Source of the DNA: Polycladomyces abyssicola | GTDB lineage: Bacteria > Bacillota > Bacilli > Thermoactinomycetales > JIR-001 | Length of the DNA stretch: 64,000 nt | Assembly (NCBI RefSeq): GCF_018326425.1 | Contig: NZ_AP024601.1 | Location: forward strand, 2,716,001 to 2,780,000 | Reading direction: 5' to 3' | Shown: positions 7,928-57,956 of the stretch, piece after piece | Layout of the letters: each line of letters begins with the position of its first letter | Numbering within the stretch: position 1 is the first letter of the stretch | Position numbers and translations under genes: made by a program | The notes under the pieces: generated by a model | The model's input: only the letters and a program-made list of their open reading frames with translations | What the model was told of the DNA's origin: nothing | The model's database searches: none

Positions 7928-7980
7928 TCCAAGATGTGGTACACCCGCCAGGGGGAACCCGTCAAAATCATCTGAGTGAG

Positions 7981-8155
7981 AGAAGGAGGAAGCAGGACAT
8001 GGTCGCACCGACCCGGAATGCAGGACGCGGGCAAAGTTTGCTTCGCTTAGAGGAGGTTGCCCGCGATTTCATCCCTGCTCTTTCCAGGTCTTCGGGGTTG
8101 GTAATTGGCTCATCTGGGAAAACATTTGCTCCCTCACAGATTTACCAGACATGCC
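7981..8155. repeat. Dispersed palindromic repeat, copy 1
   Basis: Shares long stretches with copies at 36204-36445 and 43733-43955. The core is a nested hairpin: GCAGGACGCGGGCAA (8020-8034) pairs with TTGCCCGC (8057-8064) and CCCTGC (8073-8078), and an outer ACCCGG faces CCAGGT. The right end (TTACCAGACATGCCC) matches the ends of the other copies. The left arm is missing. It fills the space between two convergent genes and ends at the base before the stop codon of the gene at 8156. Confidence 0.8.
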
Positions 8156-8860
8156 CTAATCCACCATTTCCCCTTGTAACCGACACTCAGCCACCACCCA
8201 AACACCCGGGCGGATTTTCCCCTCGACCAAAGATGGATGTGTCAACATTGTCAACCGCCACTGGTCTTTTCCTGACAATGTGATTTTCCAAAGTGTTTGA
8301 CCGGTGATCCGGTTAACCTCTTCTTCCACTCCCTCTACCTTTCCCCGAACGGCATAATTCGCCTGCTCCTCCAAGGGGATCTCACGTGTAAAGCGAGCCA
8401 CCTGCGCAAACAGTGGCATCGATCCTGCCGTGCCCAAAGATATCGGATCCACCTTTACTTGATACGCCAGACCGGTAATTCTCATCGTCCACGGCCCCGG
8501 TTGCTCCGCCCCCCAGTCATTTTGCAACCATACTGCTGTTCTGTGCAAAATTCCACCCGGTATGCTCCGCCACGCTCCCCAGACGATGCTGTGGCGTTCC
8601 GTTTGCCGTACGGTGGAAGGCAGAAACGTATGAGACAAGCCGCAAATGAGCGCCGGTACCAATTGCACCACACGTGTTCCGTCCGTCACCACACGAAAAC
8701 GAACACTCGGCGACATGGGCCAATCCACCCATTCATGCCGTTGATCTCCCAGCCGTCCCTTTCGTTTTTCTCCCTCTTTCAACGCCCGTTCCACCCACAT
8801 TTTCGCCTCTTCATGGGACGGCACACCCCATCCGGCCGCCCGCCACAATTGGGCCAGCAC
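8156..8860 (-). CDS. Conserved-looking hypothetical protein
   Basis: 234 residues, soluble, tryptophan-rich, without motifs that I recognise. The N-terminal third is helical and charged; the last 100 residues look like beta strands (KVEGVEEEVNRITGQTLWKI, VWVVAECRLQGEMVD) as in a small barrel. The GTG start at 8860 follows AAAGGAGGG at about six bases, so translation is well supported. It is divergent from the molybdopterin oxidoreductase gene, and a dispersed repeat abuts its stop codon. Confidence 0.6.
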   Translation of the reverse strand: MLAQLWRAAGWGVPSHEEAKMWVERALKEGEKRKGRLGDQRHEWVDWPMSPSVRFRVVTDGTRVVQLVPALICGLSHTFLPSTVRQTERHSIVWGAWRSIPGGILHRTAVWLQNDWGAEQPGPWTMRITGLAYQVKVDPISLGTAGSMPLFAQVARFTREIPLEEQANYAVRGKVEGVEEEVNRITGQTLWKITLSGKDQWRLTMLTHPSLVEGKIRPGVWVVAECRLQGEMVD

Positions 8861-36203: not shown

Positions 36204-36445
36204 GGGGTGAGTTTGATCCAGATCGTCCGTTTCTCGTTGCCAGATCGCTCCACCTGTGCCCGGCAAGGAAAACAGGTCATGGCCGCTCCAACCCGGAACG
36301 CAGGACGCAGGCATAGCACGTTTCACTTAAAGAAGTTGCCCGCGATTTCATTCCTGCGCTTGCCGGGTCTTCACTCGGCCGGGCTTAGCTCAGTCGCTCA
36401 TCCGGGAAAGCATTTACTCCTTCTTGGATTGACCAGACACACCCC
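36204..36445. repeat. Dispersed palindromic repeat, copy 2 (most complete)
   Basis: Begins GGGGTGAGTTTGATCC and ends GGATTGACCAGACACACCCC, so its ends are imperfect terminal inverted repeats. The centre matches copies 1 and 3: ACCCGGAACGCAGGACGC on the left faces TTCCTGCGCTTGCCGGGT on the right, around GTTGCCCGCGA. A smaller ACCTGT/ACAGGT stem lies in the left arm. It sits between the divergent gatC and cstA genes. Confidence 0.8.
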
Positions 36446-36772
36446 AGGTACTCGCGGCAAAAAGAAACGTTGTCGCCTGATGGTCGAACCAGACACATCC
36501 CAGGCAGTGCTCCAGCATCGCTCACTCCAGAAAACTTCTCCCGCTTTTACAAACCGGACGAACCCCACGTCCGTTTTCTCCCATCCTTCCTATGACAGTA
36601 TAGCACAAACTCTTCCCTTTTCTTTCACCGGCCGTACAGCTTTTCGGGACAAAATCTTGACGGCACATCCCAAAGGGAAAAATTGACCGGTCCAGATTTG
36701 GTGCATTTTGCAGTATAATCATTAATGAGGGAAGATTCCTTCATCAATATTGTCAAAGGGGGTCAAAATATT
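36446..36772. other. Intergenic stretch with a repeat fragment and cstA promoter
   Basis: No gene. At 36476-36503 a fragment (GGTCGAACCAGACACATCCC) matches the end of the dispersed repeat. A TATAAT hexamer at 36714-36719 would start transcription near 36726, so the cstA start must be the later ATG at 36773. A TTGACC lies 25 bases before it, too far for a standard spacer. Confidence 0.5.
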
Positions 36773-38848: not shown

Positions 38849-39055
38849 ATGGACGGTTTGTTGACGCGTTGCCTGCGCCCGTTGAAGGCGGTAGCCAACT
38901 ATCTGAACGCCATCGCCGGTGTACCTGATTATCAAAAATACCTGGAACACATGCGCCGCCACCATCCCGACCAACAGCCCATGTCAGAAAGTGAATTTCA
39001 TCGCTGGGCCACCGATGAAAAATATGGCGGCAAAGGTGTCCGGCGCTGTTGTTGA
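38849..39055 (+). CDS. YbdD/YjiX-family (DUF466) partner of CstA
   Basis: 68 residues. YLNAIAGVPDYQKYLEHMRR, FHRWATDEKYGGKGVRRCC is the normal end of the family. Almost always encoded next to CstA and thought to work with it. GAGGAGGGAG lies before the ATG. Its last 29 codons and the following hairpin are duplicated at 40851-40963. Confidence 0.92.
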   Translation: MDGLLTRCLRPLKAVANYLNAIAGVPDYQKYLEHMRRHHPDQQPMSESEFHRWATDEKYGGKGVRRCC

Positions 39056-39082
39056 AAAAGGGACAGGGAAAAGCCCCGTCCC
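38969..39082 (+). repeat. Direct repeat, left copy: ybdD 3' end plus hairpin
   Basis: 114 bases covering the last part of the ybdD-like gene and a GGGACAGGG/CCCCGTCCC hairpin. About 90% identical to 40851-40962. The hairpin here has a mismatch and no T-run. The two copies enclose the dehalogenase/peroxiredoxin island. Confidence 0.85.
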
Positions 39083-40850: not shown

Positions 40851-40963
40851 GACCAACAGCCCATGTCAGAAAGAGAACATCGCTGGGCCACCGATGAAAA
40901 ATATGGCGGCAAAGGTGCCCGGCACTGTTGTTGAAAAAAGGGACGGGGTTATTCCCCGTCCCT
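40851..40963 (+). repeat. Direct repeat, right copy: truncated ybdD tail
   Basis: Matches 38969-39082 but starts abruptly after the peroxiredoxin gene. It keeps the ybdD frame (MSEREHRWATDEKYGGKG, shorter by one codon) to the same CC-stop, and its hairpin is intact with a T-run. This suggests the right copy holds the original chromosomal terminator. Confidence 0.85.
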
Positions 40964-42331: not shown

Positions 42332-42985
42332 TCAGCCCGCCAAGCGTTTTTCCAAATACCGGCTCACCCTTGAGAGGCTGTAATTGATGGTGAAATAGAT
42401 AAACGCCACCAGCAAGAGCAACGGGATGGTCGCATTCACGTACTTGTTGTAAACGATCTGCGCGTTGTGCATAATTTCCTCCAAACTGATCACAACCGCG
42501 AGCGATGTGTCCTTCACCAATGTGATAAACTGGCTGACCAACGGCGGGATCATGCGTTTGAGGGCCTGCGGCAGAATGATGTACCACAAGGTTTGTACAT
42601 AGGTGAACCCTTGGGCACGTGCGGCTTCGATTTGCCCTTTTTCCACTGAGTTCAATCCGCTTCGCACAATCTCCGCGATCAACGCCGAGGTGAATACCGT
42701 AAGCCCCGCAATCGCCGCCATGGTCACGGGCAATTCTACTCCCATGTCTCGCAAACCGAAATAGCCGAAGAAAATGATGAGCAACAGCGGCAAATTGCGC
42801 ATCACCTCGATGTACAACACCGCGAGCTGGGATAATACCGGCAATTTCGTATACCGCAGGATACCCAGAATAATACCGAAGACGAAACTGAGTACAATGG
42901 CGGATGCCGCCACTTCCAATGTGACCAGTAGGCCTTCCATCAACGACCGGAGCGTTGCTGGTGCGAATGTGTGTTGTAAATCCAT
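42332..42985 (-). CDS. glnP: Amino-acid ABC transporter permease (GlnP-like)
   Basis: 217 residues, about five membrane segments, with the permease EAA loop EAARAQGFTYVQTLWYIILPQAL. Pairs with the upstream permease, the binding protein and ATPase to import a polar amino acid, probably glutamine or glutamate. ATG at 42985 six bases after GGGGG. 13 bases after the preceding permease. Confidence 0.88.
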   Translation of the reverse strand: MDLQHTFAPATLRSLMEGLLVTLEVAASAIVLSFVFGIILGILRYTKLPVLSQLAVLYIEVMRNLPLLLIIFFGYFGLRDMGVELPVTMAAIAGLTVFTSALIAEIVRSGLNSVEKGQIEAARAQGFTYVQTLWYIILPQALKRMIPPLVSQFITLVKDTSLAVVISLEEIMHNAQIVYNKYVNATIPLLLLVAFIYFTINYSLSRVSRYLEKRLAG

Positions 42986-42998
42986 CGGCATCCCCCTT

Positions 42999-43652
42999 TC
43001 AGTAGTTCTTACTCAGCCGACGTTCCAACCAATTGACACCCAAACTGAGCGGCAGAGTGATAACCAGATACAGCAAAGCGACAAAACCGTATACGAGTGC
43101 CACCTCAAACGTATCCGACGATACCCGATCGGCGGTATACAGCAAATCCCCACCAGCGATGATAGCCAGAACCGATGAGTTTTTCACCAGGTTGACGAAC
43201 TGGTTGCCGAGCGGTGGGATGACCAGCTTAAACGCTTGCGGCAAAATCACGTATCGCATGGCCTGCACATAACTCATTCCGGATGAACGTGCCGCTTCCA
43301 TCTGCCCTTTCGGCACGGACTGGATCCCGGCACGTAGCGCTTCGGCGATGAATGCCCCGGTGTAGATGGACAGTCCCAGCACGCCACTGGTGAACTCAGA
43401 AAACCGAATGCCCAACGTGGGAAGTCCGATTGCAAACAGAAACACCTGTATCACAATGGGCGTGTTGCGAAAAAACTCCACATAAGCCGTTCCCACGATT
43501 TCCAATGGCCGCACTCCGGACAACCGCAACACCGCGATGAACGTACCGATGGCCAAACTGAGTCCCAATGCCAGTACGCTTGCCGAAAGCGTGACAAGAA
43601 ACCCATCGATAAACTCCTGCTTGTAATCGGCCAAAACTGTTACGTCGAACAT
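42999..43652 (-). CDS. glnM: Amino-acid ABC transporter permease (GlnM-like)
   Basis: 217 residues. EAA loop MEAARSSGMSYVQAMRYVILPQAF; several membrane segments. Second permease of the GlnQHMP-type importer. ATG after GGGGGTGAG. The 406 bases upstream (43653-44058), which separate it from the binding-protein gene, hold a dispersed repeat. Confidence 0.88.
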   Translation of the reverse strand: MFDVTVLADYKQEFIDGFLVTLSASVLALGLSLAIGTFIAVLRLSGVRPLEIVGTAYVEFFRNTPIVIQVFLFAIGLPTLGIRFSEFTSGVLGLSIYTGAFIAEALRAGIQSVPKGQMEAARSSGMSYVQAMRYVILPQAFKLVIPPLGNQFVNLVKNSSVLAIIAGGDLLYTADRVSSDTFEVALVYGFVALLYLVITLPLSLGVNWLERRLSKNY

Positions 43653-43732
43653 CGCTCACCCCCGCTTTCGTCTCAGGACAAATCTGGTCAATATCTGTCG
43701 ATCATCTGATACACGATCGTGGCTCCAGCCAG

Positions 43733-43955
43733 GACCTGTCTGATCTATGACCCGCATCGCTTTCCCGGCTTGCTCCACCTGCACCCTCTCGGGAAGCAGT
43801 TCATGGACGCTTGGAACCGGGGGCAGGACGCGGGCAATTACGCTTCGAACGGGTAAATGCCCGCGAGTGATTCCTGCGCTTACCGGCGCTCCCTCGGTCG
43901 GGCTTGGGAAAGCCGTTCACCCGGGAAATCGTTGCTTCCCACGGCTGAAGAACTA
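43733..43955. repeat. Dispersed palindromic repeat, copy 3, inside the importer operon
   Basis: Left end CCTGTCTGATCTATGACCCG and CATCGCTTTCCCGG match the repeat end; core GGCAGGACGCGGGCAA faces TGCCCGCGAGTGATTCCTGC and CTTACCGG. It lies between glnH and glnM on the transcribed path of the operon. Confidence 0.75.
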
Positions 43956-44058
43956 GAGGCACTCCCTATGGTCGCTGTGGGCCTCTCACTTCATCTGGAG
44001 TAGCAATCTACATTCATCCACAGTGGATTTGTCCAAGCCCGGATATGCCGTACGCGTA

Positions 44059-44898
44059 TCACGGAGCTTTTTGTACTGCGTCTGCCGGAATGTTGGCTGG
44101 CGGGTCTTTTTTGAACCACTTCTGATAGAGCTTCTGATAGGTGCCGTCCTTCATGATGTCATTCAAGAAATCGTTCAACGCTTTCAGGAGATCCTTGTTC
44201 CCCTTTTTCACCGCCATCCCGTACGGCTCTTGCGTAAACTGCCCGCCGACGAGTTTGAAGTGGGTGGGGTCCTGTTGTTGCATGCCCATCAAGATACTGT
44301 CATCGGTCGTCACGGCATCCGCTTGACCGCTCTTGAGCGCCGTGAATGCATCGGCATAGTTTTCATACTCCTTGATCTTCACACCGGGAGCCAATTTTTC
44401 CAAGTTCCGGCCGCTCGTGGCTCCTTTGGCCGTGGCCACCACTTTTCCGTTCAAAGATTTCAGCCCCGTGATCGGACTGTTGGTCGGCACCAGCAAGGAT
44501 TGTCCGGCCATGAAATAGACGCGGGAAAAATCCACCTGTTTCTTCCGCTTGTCGGTAATGGTCATCGTCGCCGCGATCACGTCGACATCGCCGCTTTGCA
44601 GCATCTTGATCCGCGTTTTGGAGGTGACCTCCTTGAACTCCACTTTCTTTTCATCTCCCAGCAGTCTCTTGGCAAACTCGCGCATCAAATCGATTTCAAA
44701 ACCTTTGACTTGACCGTCAGCGGGATCTTTGTAGCCGAACAGGTTGGTATCATACTTGACACCGACGACCAATTTCCCCCGCTTTTTAATCGCTGCCAGT
44801 GACGAATCGTCGGCCGAGCTTCCATCACCGCACGCCGTCAGGGAAAACGCTAACACCACGGACAGACACAGCACCAACCAACGCTTCCAAAAACGCAT
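44059..44898 (-). CDS. glnH: Amino-acid ABC transporter substrate-binding lipoprotein (GlnH-like)
   Basis: 279 residues. Signal with lipobox (LTAC, Cys23), then the polar-amino-acid binding fold: KLVVGVKYDTNLFGYKDP, GFEIDLMREFAKRLLGD, the ligand-binding MTITDKRKKQVDFSRVYF and DAVTTDDSILMG. Anchored outside the membrane. Glutamine/glutamate is the probable ligand from operon type. ATG after AAAGGGGG. Confidence 0.92.
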   Translation of the reverse strand: MRFWKRWLVLCLSVVLAFSLTACGDGSSADDSSLAAIKKRGKLVVGVKYDTNLFGYKDPADGQVKGFEIDLMREFAKRLLGDEKKVEFKEVTSKTRIKMLQSGDVDVIAATMTITDKRKKQVDFSRVYFMAGQSLLVPTNSPITGLKSLNGKVVATAKGATSGRNLEKLAPGVKIKEYENYADAFTALKSGQADAVTTDDSILMGMQQQDPTHFKLVGGQFTQEPYGMAVKKGNKDLLKALNDFLNDIMKDGTYQKLYQKWFKKDPPANIPADAVQKAP

Positions 44899-44913: not shown

Positions 44914-45657
44914 TTAATGTTTCAGAATTCTGCTTAAAAACTGCCGGGTCCGTTCTTCTTTTGGATTGTTGAAAAACGTCTCCGGCTCGGATTCTTCCAA
45001 AATCCGTCCTTCATCCATAAAGATCACCCGATCCGCCACTTCCCGTGCGAACCCCATCTCGTGGGTCACAACCACCATGGTCATGCCTTCTTTGGCCAGC
45101 GTTCGCATCACATCCAACACTTCGCCGATCATTTCGGGATCGAGTGCGGAAGTTGGCTCGTCAAACAACATGATTTTCGGTTTCATCGCCAATCCTCTGG
45201 CGATCGCGACGCGTTGCTGCTGACCGCCCGACAATTGGGAGGGATAGGCGTTGGCCTTCTCTGGGATTCCCACTTTTTGCAGGTAAAATTCTGCAATTTT
45301 TCGCGCTTCCTCTTCCGGCACTTTTTTTACTTTCATCGGGGCGAGCATGATGTTTTCCAACACCGTTTTGTGGGGATACAGATGAAAGTGCTGGAAAACC
45401 ATGCCGATCTCTTGTCGCGCTTTGTTCAGGTTGGTTTTGGGGTCGTTCATTTTTACCCCGTCCACAATCACTTCGCCCTCAGAAACCGTTTCCAACTGAT
45501 TGATACAGCGGAGCAAGGTGCTTTTGCCCGATCCGCTGGGTCCAAGAATCACGACCACTTCGCCCGCTTGGATCGTCAAGTTGATATCTTTTAGGACATG
45601 AAAATCTCCGAACCATTTGTTGACCTGGCGGAACTGAATGATCGTACATCCCTCCAT
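44914..45657 (-). CDS. glnQ: Amino-acid ABC transporter ATP-binding protein (GlnQ-like)
   Basis: About 247 residues. Walker [14 protein letters not shown]-loop [14 protein letters not shown], signature [16 protein letters not shown], Walker [16 protein letters not shown]-loop VVTHEMGFA. The start is uncertain: the first ATG (45657) overlaps the GGAGGG that should be its ribosome-binding site, and relatives begin at the ATC-ATT-CAG codons 12-18 bases later, so a non-ATG start is possible. First gene of the importer operon, with promoter at 45717-45746. Confidence 0.93.
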
Positions 45658-45716
45658 TGCAGACAATTTTGAAATCAATATGAGGAATGAGGAAGAAAAA
45701 CACTTTCCGTAAGGTG

Positions 45717-52110: not shown

Positions 52111-52112
52111 AA

Positions 52113-52155
52113 GGGTGTGTCTGGTGAATACTGTCCACATTGCTTTCCCGGCTCT
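52113..52155. repeat. Fragment of the dispersed repeat (one end)
   Basis: GGGTGTGTCTGGTGAAT, then ATTGCTTTCCCGG, matches the terminal inverted repeat of copies 1-3; the body is absent. Follows the putB terminator directly. Confidence 0.7.
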
Positions 52156-57907: not shown

Positions 57908-57956
57908 GGTCGTGTCTGGTCATTCCGTAAGGAAGCAATGTTTTCCCAAATCATGG
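57908..57956. repeat. Fragment of the dispersed repeat (one end)
   Basis: TCGTGTCTGGTCATTCCG and GGAAGCAATGTTTTCCCAAAT follow the terminal inverted repeat of copies 1-3. The body is absent. It lies 45 bases upstream of the MerR promoter. Confidence 0.65.

Follow-up and report, generated by a model that had tools for sequence, protein, structure and literature searches.

In the importer operon of the heat-loving bacterium Polycladomyces abyssicola studied here, the gap between the substrate-binding protein gene and the first permease gene contains, as we conclude with high confidence, a non-autonomous structured insertion that lies in sense orientation and predates the split of three Polycladomyces species, and whose left end has since given way, in P. 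abyssicola, to a right-end remnant of a TnpB transposon. The explanation we favor overall, with a probability of about one in two, joins an ancestral insertion of this repeat (repeat B), the loss of a hairpin, and a role of the repeat as a barrier to mRNA decay. The site forms a natural before-and-after comparison, in which the operon of most related genera has a terminator-like hairpin where that of Polycladomyces has a mobile structured repeat; a possible takeover of importer stoichiometry control by a selfish repeat is therefore directly testable.

The importer gap and its two mobile elements

The window analyzed is a stretch of 64,000 nucleotides (G000:C1:2716001-2780000) from the chromosome of P. 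abyssicola JIR-001, a single contig of 3,197,230 bases from a strain grown at 60 °C (PMC8210696). Based on ORF calls and Pfam, the operon runs on the minus strand in the order ATPase, binding protein, gap, permease 1, permease 2. The preliminary description of this DNA, in which 406 bases split glnQ-glnH from glnM-glnP, is confirmed: the gap extends exactly from 43653 to 44058, with the binding-protein stop at one side and the permease 1 start at the other, and four Pfam assignments support the gene identities. Two mobile elements share these 406 nt, namely a copy of repeat B and a remnant of the right end of a TnpB transposon (family A), the latter having been overlooked in that description. 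When the gap was used as a query against the genome, two sets of partial matches were obtained, covering approximately query positions 17-127 (family A) and 117-331 (family B). R1 and R2 below are covariance models of the B core, R2 being built from 22 matches outside Polycladomyces only.

44914..45678, minus strand: ABC importer ATPase gene, glnQ-like (ORF; PF00005, ABC_tran, E 7e-41)
44059..44898, minus strand: substrate-binding protein gene, amino-acid-type, glnH-like (ORF; PF00497, SBP_bac_3, E 4.7e-41)
43653..44058, minus strand: gap between binding protein and permease 1, 406 nt (ORF boundaries)
43932..44042, minus strand: TnpB insertion sequence, non-coding right-end remnant, family A (matches the sequence 3' of a broken tnpB at locus L003)
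43758..43928, minus strand (sense to the operon): repeat B core, a branched structured element (R1, 124.2 bits; R2, 65.0 bits, E 8.4e-15)
43829..43865, minus strand: apical hairpin of the gap core, CGCGGGC..GCCCGCG, without a U-tract (-19.3 kcal/mol at 37 °C, -10.4 at 60 °C)
43729..43757, minus strand: decayed right end of the gap B copy (the terminal inverted repeat, or TIR, of the right end aligns to 43729-43744; consensus ACCAGACACGCCCTAG)
42999..43652, minus strand: permease 1 gene, glnM-like (ORF; PF00528, BPD_transp_1)
42332..42991, minus strand: permease 2 gene, glnP-like (ORF; PF00528, BPD_transp_1)

The gap repeat had been counted as copy 3, which is right by position (the other window cores recovered by R2 are listed below). 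At 37 °C its core folds to -77.2 kcal/mol, whereas shuffles average -63.5 (z -3.0; 2 of 200 did as well), and at 60 °C to -44.2 kcal/mol (z -2.66; 4 of 200 did as well); the fold of the entire gap is modestly better than that of shuffles (z -1.93). Downstream of the strongest stems the sequence is GC-rich. The left end of the copy is lost where the family A remnant lies, and its right end is better preserved in one sister species (G002) than in P. abyssicola. The gap was also considered as a T-box or other known riboswitch, and this was rejected, as no Rfam match was found up to E 5.

We identified 43932-44042 as a TnpB transposon right-end remnant because it is equal to the sequence directly downstream of tnpB at locus L003. 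At that locus the tnpB fragments, which carry OrfB_IS605 and Cas12f1-like TNB domains according to Pfam, end at 1483, and family A starts 14 nt on, at 1498. The family A remnant is absent from the orthologous gaps of both sister species.

The same gap in related genomes

Orthologues of the operon were sought with permease 1 as the query, which gave matches at E <= 1e-40 in 47 of 61 genomes. The gap measures 406 nt in P. abyssicola (G000, the window genome), 339 nt in G001 and 396 nt in G002, the latter two being sister Polycladomyces species. All three carry B at the same place and in the same orientation; the insertion therefore predates these species.

In 14 genomes from other genera of the order (L171-L179, L181-L185), the orthologous gap is 69-186 nt long. 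A scan for hairpins followed by U-runs detected one in 11 of these gaps; seven of these hairpins were unmatched by any of 40 shuffles, and the other four were equaled by 1-3 of 40 (L175, 3; L176, 2; L178, 1; L183, 1). The three remaining gaps (L173, L181, L182) have a strong hairpin with too little U. The comparison with repeat-free relatives that the preliminary description had proposed partly bears out its interpretation, in that it supports the broad view of this gap as a control point. Neither G000 nor G001 has a hairpin with a U-run in the gap, and the one in G002 is no better than chance (equaled by 5 of 15 shuffles). Operon 1 of Polycladomyces has thus lost the terminator-like hairpin carried by relatives after the binding-protein gene.

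Outside the order, the gap of G052 has a hairpin with a U-run and that of G055 does not. Among nine named loci (L079-L087), none was detected in Bacillus subtilis and Paenibacillus cisolokensis, a chance-level one in Lederbergia, and one each in Shouchella, Kurthia and Neobacillus; the remaining three, from Thermoflavimicrobium and two Shimazuella species, are apparently the operons of L176, L177 and L179 again, since they agree with them in gap length and hairpin.

Polycladomyces has two further operons of the same type. In these (operons 2 and 3), all six gaps of the three species have a compact hairpin immediately downstream of the stop codon of the binding-protein gene. Because they keep this hairpin, operon 1 is the exception, lacking the usual hairpin and having B as the next feature after its binding-protein gene. 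Between binding protein and permease, operon 2 of G000 holds a B half-element, that of G002 holds a relic reduced to an end, and that of G001 has neither; in operon 3, B lies just after the last gene in all three species. In operon 2 of G000 (L240, G000:C1:1177500-1183500), the B half lies downstream of the retained hairpin, and a further B half is found upstream of the binding protein.

Repeat B and the family of its core

Repeat B is approximately 244 bp long and has TIRs, the ends of the consensus alignment being CTAGGGYGTGTCTGGT and ACCAGACACGCCCTAG. The TIR pattern GTGTCTGGT../..ACCAGACAC gave 52 matches in the genome, compared with 1 for the reversed control. A first look at P. abyssicola yielded 143 candidates, at least 40 of which scored as matches (the best 40 of the 143), and 62 of 65 scored candidates match R1, giving at least 62 copies. 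Within the window, element ends were searched with TIR patterns allowing mismatches, and the window alone contained 5 pattern matches against a chance mean of 1.02. Besides the gap copy, the window holds the following:

36233..36447 (core 36233-36409), minus strand: B copy 2 of the window (TIR pattern, R1; orthologous copy in G001, L211)
7952..8158 (core 8008-8094), minus strand: B copy 1 of the window (TIR pattern, R1, R2)
52112..52154, minus strand: B element, right end only (TIR pattern)
57912..57948, plus strand: B element, left end only (TIR pattern)

A 64-nt direct repeat, 95% identical and 1.9 kb apart (38999-39062 and 40878-40941), lies in the same window and is outside the B family.

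B has several properties of a MITE, being short, multi-copy, non-coding, bounded by TIRs and, at two loci examined, polymorphic in insertion. A copy in G001 (L159) has no counterpart in G002 and only element ends at the G000 site, and a copy in G002 (L158) is missing from G000, where 9 bases separate the flanking matches. Six of 30 copies in G001 and G002 have an orthologue among 60 G000 loci; for the other 24, the G000 site was inspected at L158 and L159 only. At both sites B or its relic stands in opposite orientations in different species, which suggests in-place inversion or repeated insertion. End-only relics with a deleted interior were observed at L229 (G000:C1:3017593-3017655) and L242 (2817-2871). 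We call B "MITE-like" only, because no autonomous transposon sharing its TIRs was found: a search of its own genome for two transposase families, PF13358 (1 match) and PF01609 (2 matches, 1 above the cut-off), gave none with B TIRs. A decayed IS630-like transposase fragment (DDE_3) occurs at G000:C1:1498587-1498760 (L198), with no B ends nearby. The consensus ends CTAG..CTAG would fit a TA target-site duplication, but individual copies vary by eye, and the poor site alignments gave no empty site at the level of single bases.

Among 69 distinct copies with context, 38 lie between co-directional ORFs, 11 between convergent and 10 between divergent ones, 9 were called inside ORFs, and 1 is unresolved. 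Of 25 filtered copies between co-directional genes, 20 were sense-oriented (binomial p 0.004), a provisional count that used greedy ORF calls and best-scoring copies only, minus 8 orthologous-duplicate loci and those failing on length or distance. Some copies (e.g., L166, L163, L056) start on the TAG of a neighboring ORF's stop, with the ORF ending 3 nt past the first base of the element; a TA target followed by G would preserve the stop codon at such insertions.

The structure of B was taken from the consensus fold and then tested by pair counts. In 28 aligned cores (26 from Polycladomyces, 2 from G035), both partners are substituted in 22 of 56 pairs, compared with 12.6 in shuffles. R1 has matches in 16 of 42 genomes and 12 of 27 genera of the order. 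In the 22 matches outside the genus both sides changed in 45 of 56 pairs, and the covariation score was 0.493, compared with 0.170 when shuffled and at most 0.128 when slid; with new R2 matches added it was 0.576 versus 0.180 (37 sequences). Two of the alignments (A2, A3) were fitted to the model structure, and their pair counts therefore lean toward it. RNAalifold returned almost nothing from a poor alignment of 46 copies and the consensus. R2, which contains no Polycladomyces sequence, recovers all three window copies, and in an even sample of 200 genomes across the class it has matches, often in many copies, in 34 genomes and 20 of 94 genera; 40 other loci of relatives (control, 192 kb) gave none.

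Flanks of 40 nt outside the core pair better with their own partner than with a foreign one (mean -21.8 versus -14.5 kcal/mol, 26 copies), which suggests that the TIRs form the outer portion of a single long helix; in 6 of the 26, at least 30% of foreign flanks paired as well as the own one.

No Rfam 15 match lies over the B element in the window or in 25 other loci, where matches to tRNA, SRP, T-box and two others all fall outside it. We also found no description of B or its core family in the literature searched, mostly papers readable without a subscription, and no plasmid or phage homologues by blastn with four queries. No ORF that looks element-borne was found as a conserved neighbor of distant copies; a long neighbor shared by G001 and G022 was considered as such a protein and rejected as an ordinary RNA methyltransferase (tRNA_U5-meth_tr and TRAM). 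In two genera the element adjoins an RNA uracil methyltransferase-like gene (tRNA_U5-meth_tr with TRAM; L246 1725-3113, L251 1643-3124), which may be chance. Among the class matches (L246-L286), some copies form inverted pairs 107-212 nt apart (L254, L258, L283, L286) and others are in tandem (L276, L280).

A structured repeat with strong covariation, spread through the sampled class and unlisted in Rfam, is a wider result and more interesting than the operon finding. The conserved fold of the family needs explaining, whether by a transposition intermediate, an RNA function, or both. The broadest reading, unlikely when taken as a whole, would make B the Polycladomyces branch of an undescribed class-wide mobile family with a conserved, covarying, branched RNA-like fold and lineage-specific outer arms, dispersing over chromosomes and supplying ready-made mRNA structures between genes, one of which took the place of an ancestral attenuator between binding protein and permease.

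Possible function of the gap copy and comparison with known systems

According to the explanation we favor, transcription of the operon would read through B, the folded B RNA would, after a cut farther downstream in the message, block decay in the 3'-to-5' direction, and the binding-protein mRNA would outlast the permease mRNA. B would fill the place of the lost leaky terminator by another mechanism. That B protects the upstream message is possible; the regulatory step itself, with B as an mRNA 3' barrier, is tentative, its chances falling a little below even. It is supported by the shared position and direction of B in three species, the absence here of the hairpin found in most relatives, the exceptional state of operon 1, and the kept pairing of the core. 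Divergence like that of four-fold sites, broken pairs, invasion by a second element and the weaker fold at 60 °C count against it. The available text of PMC5927463 reports binding-protein excess through differential decay in E. coli, with stabilized binding-protein mRNA in malEFG, by a structure downstream of malE, and in four other ABC operons; this is a precedent in favor of a barrier, but the 3' protection comes from a Gram-negative bacterium, which counts against one here. So does the finding, in the part of PMC3446304 available, that of the common B. cereus repeats bcr1-bcr3, bcr3 alone showed a correlation with the rate of decay.

A neutral reading, in which a mobile repeat inserted by chance into a tolerant gap and is decaying without effect on importer stoichiometry, is nearly as likely, since the gap copy diverges about as fast as four-fold sites. 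The operon-1 core is 76-80% identical between the three species, compared with 74-86% at four-fold sites of flanking genes, and this is lower than or equal to the identity of five other shared B copies (80-92%). Retention of pairs relative to permuted mutations gave z values of 2.14 (G000), 2.31 (G001) and 0.58 (G002), with a mean of 0.76 over 70 copies, and the G000 gap copy has lost 9 of its 54 scored pairs; as a sign of selection, pair retention is weak at best. Chance insertion and decay also agree with the second insertion inside B in one species, with the presence of B in many other gaps (69 copies with context), and with the varying state of the operon 2 insertion, which is halved, reduced to an end, or missing depending on the species. 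However, the terminator-like hairpin is missing solely in the operon where B immediately follows the binding-protein gene, and the entire core persists there in all three species.

The two other readings concern transcription. The preliminary description had suggested that the repeat terminates part of transcription, and relatives do carry hairpins of a terminator-like kind there. Internal terminators in ABC operons can also be without clear U-tracts, as are those termed type IV in the available text of PMC9045158. However, B has no U-tract, and intrinsic termination by it is therefore not supported; the scan found no hairpin with a U-run in the G000 or G001 gap and a chance-level one in G002, and GC-rich sequence follows the strongest stems. 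We rejected the gap repeat as an intrinsic terminator, and partial termination by B, or by B together with the TnpB remnant, appears improbable. A separate promoter for the permease genes, which the preliminary description had named as evidence against its proposal if found just before glnM, would suit the length of the gap, and intact copies of B could offer a -35-like half in the TTGGACA of their consensus right end. This segment is decayed in the gap copy, and a crude scan found no sigma-70-like site on the minus strand of the gap, making such a promoter slightly less probable still than partial termination.

Several known systems resemble parts of this arrangement. Family A belongs with the right ends of IS200/IS605 elements, tnpB being adjacent in at least one copy (L003). 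The gap remnant resembles them in matching the tnpB-adjacent sequence of that locus and differs in being isolated, without tnpB. REP elements are short palindromes that go with a RAYT transposase in the genome, and the structure between malE and malF of E. coli is a REP repeat; B, in contrast, is approximately 240 bp long, branched and bounded by TIRs. Both place a palindromic structure in a gap between binding protein and permease, as far as the accessible text of PMC5927463 describes the E. coli case. In cellulolytic Clostridia, internal terminators downstream of binding-protein genes, in the gap before the translocator, give binding-protein excess according to the text available of PMC9045158. 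They share the position of a hairpin right after the binding-protein gene, but B is mobile and lacks a U-tract, and it is the hairpins of the relatives that fit this system.

RUP of Streptococcus pneumoniae, like other IS630-type MITEs, is similar to B in its TIRs, its roughly 100 copies and its non-autonomy, and the B consensus ends CTAG..CTAG would fit a TA target as in that type. RUP is 107 bp, AT-rich and accompanied by a TIR-matching IS in the part of PMC3049150 available, whereas B is approximately 244 bp and no matching transposase was found in the two families sought. B also resembles bcr1-bcr3, which the accessible text of PMC3446304 presents as MITE-like, transcribed, structured repeats of the B. 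cereus group, often located in UTRs and operon gaps; B is likewise short, multi-copy, intergenic and folded. It differs from them in size, and it is set apart from bcr1 by description rather than by sequence comparison. By its published description, bcr1 is confined to the B. cereus group, whereas the B core, with its covarying pairs, recurs in 20 of the 94 genera sampled from the class.
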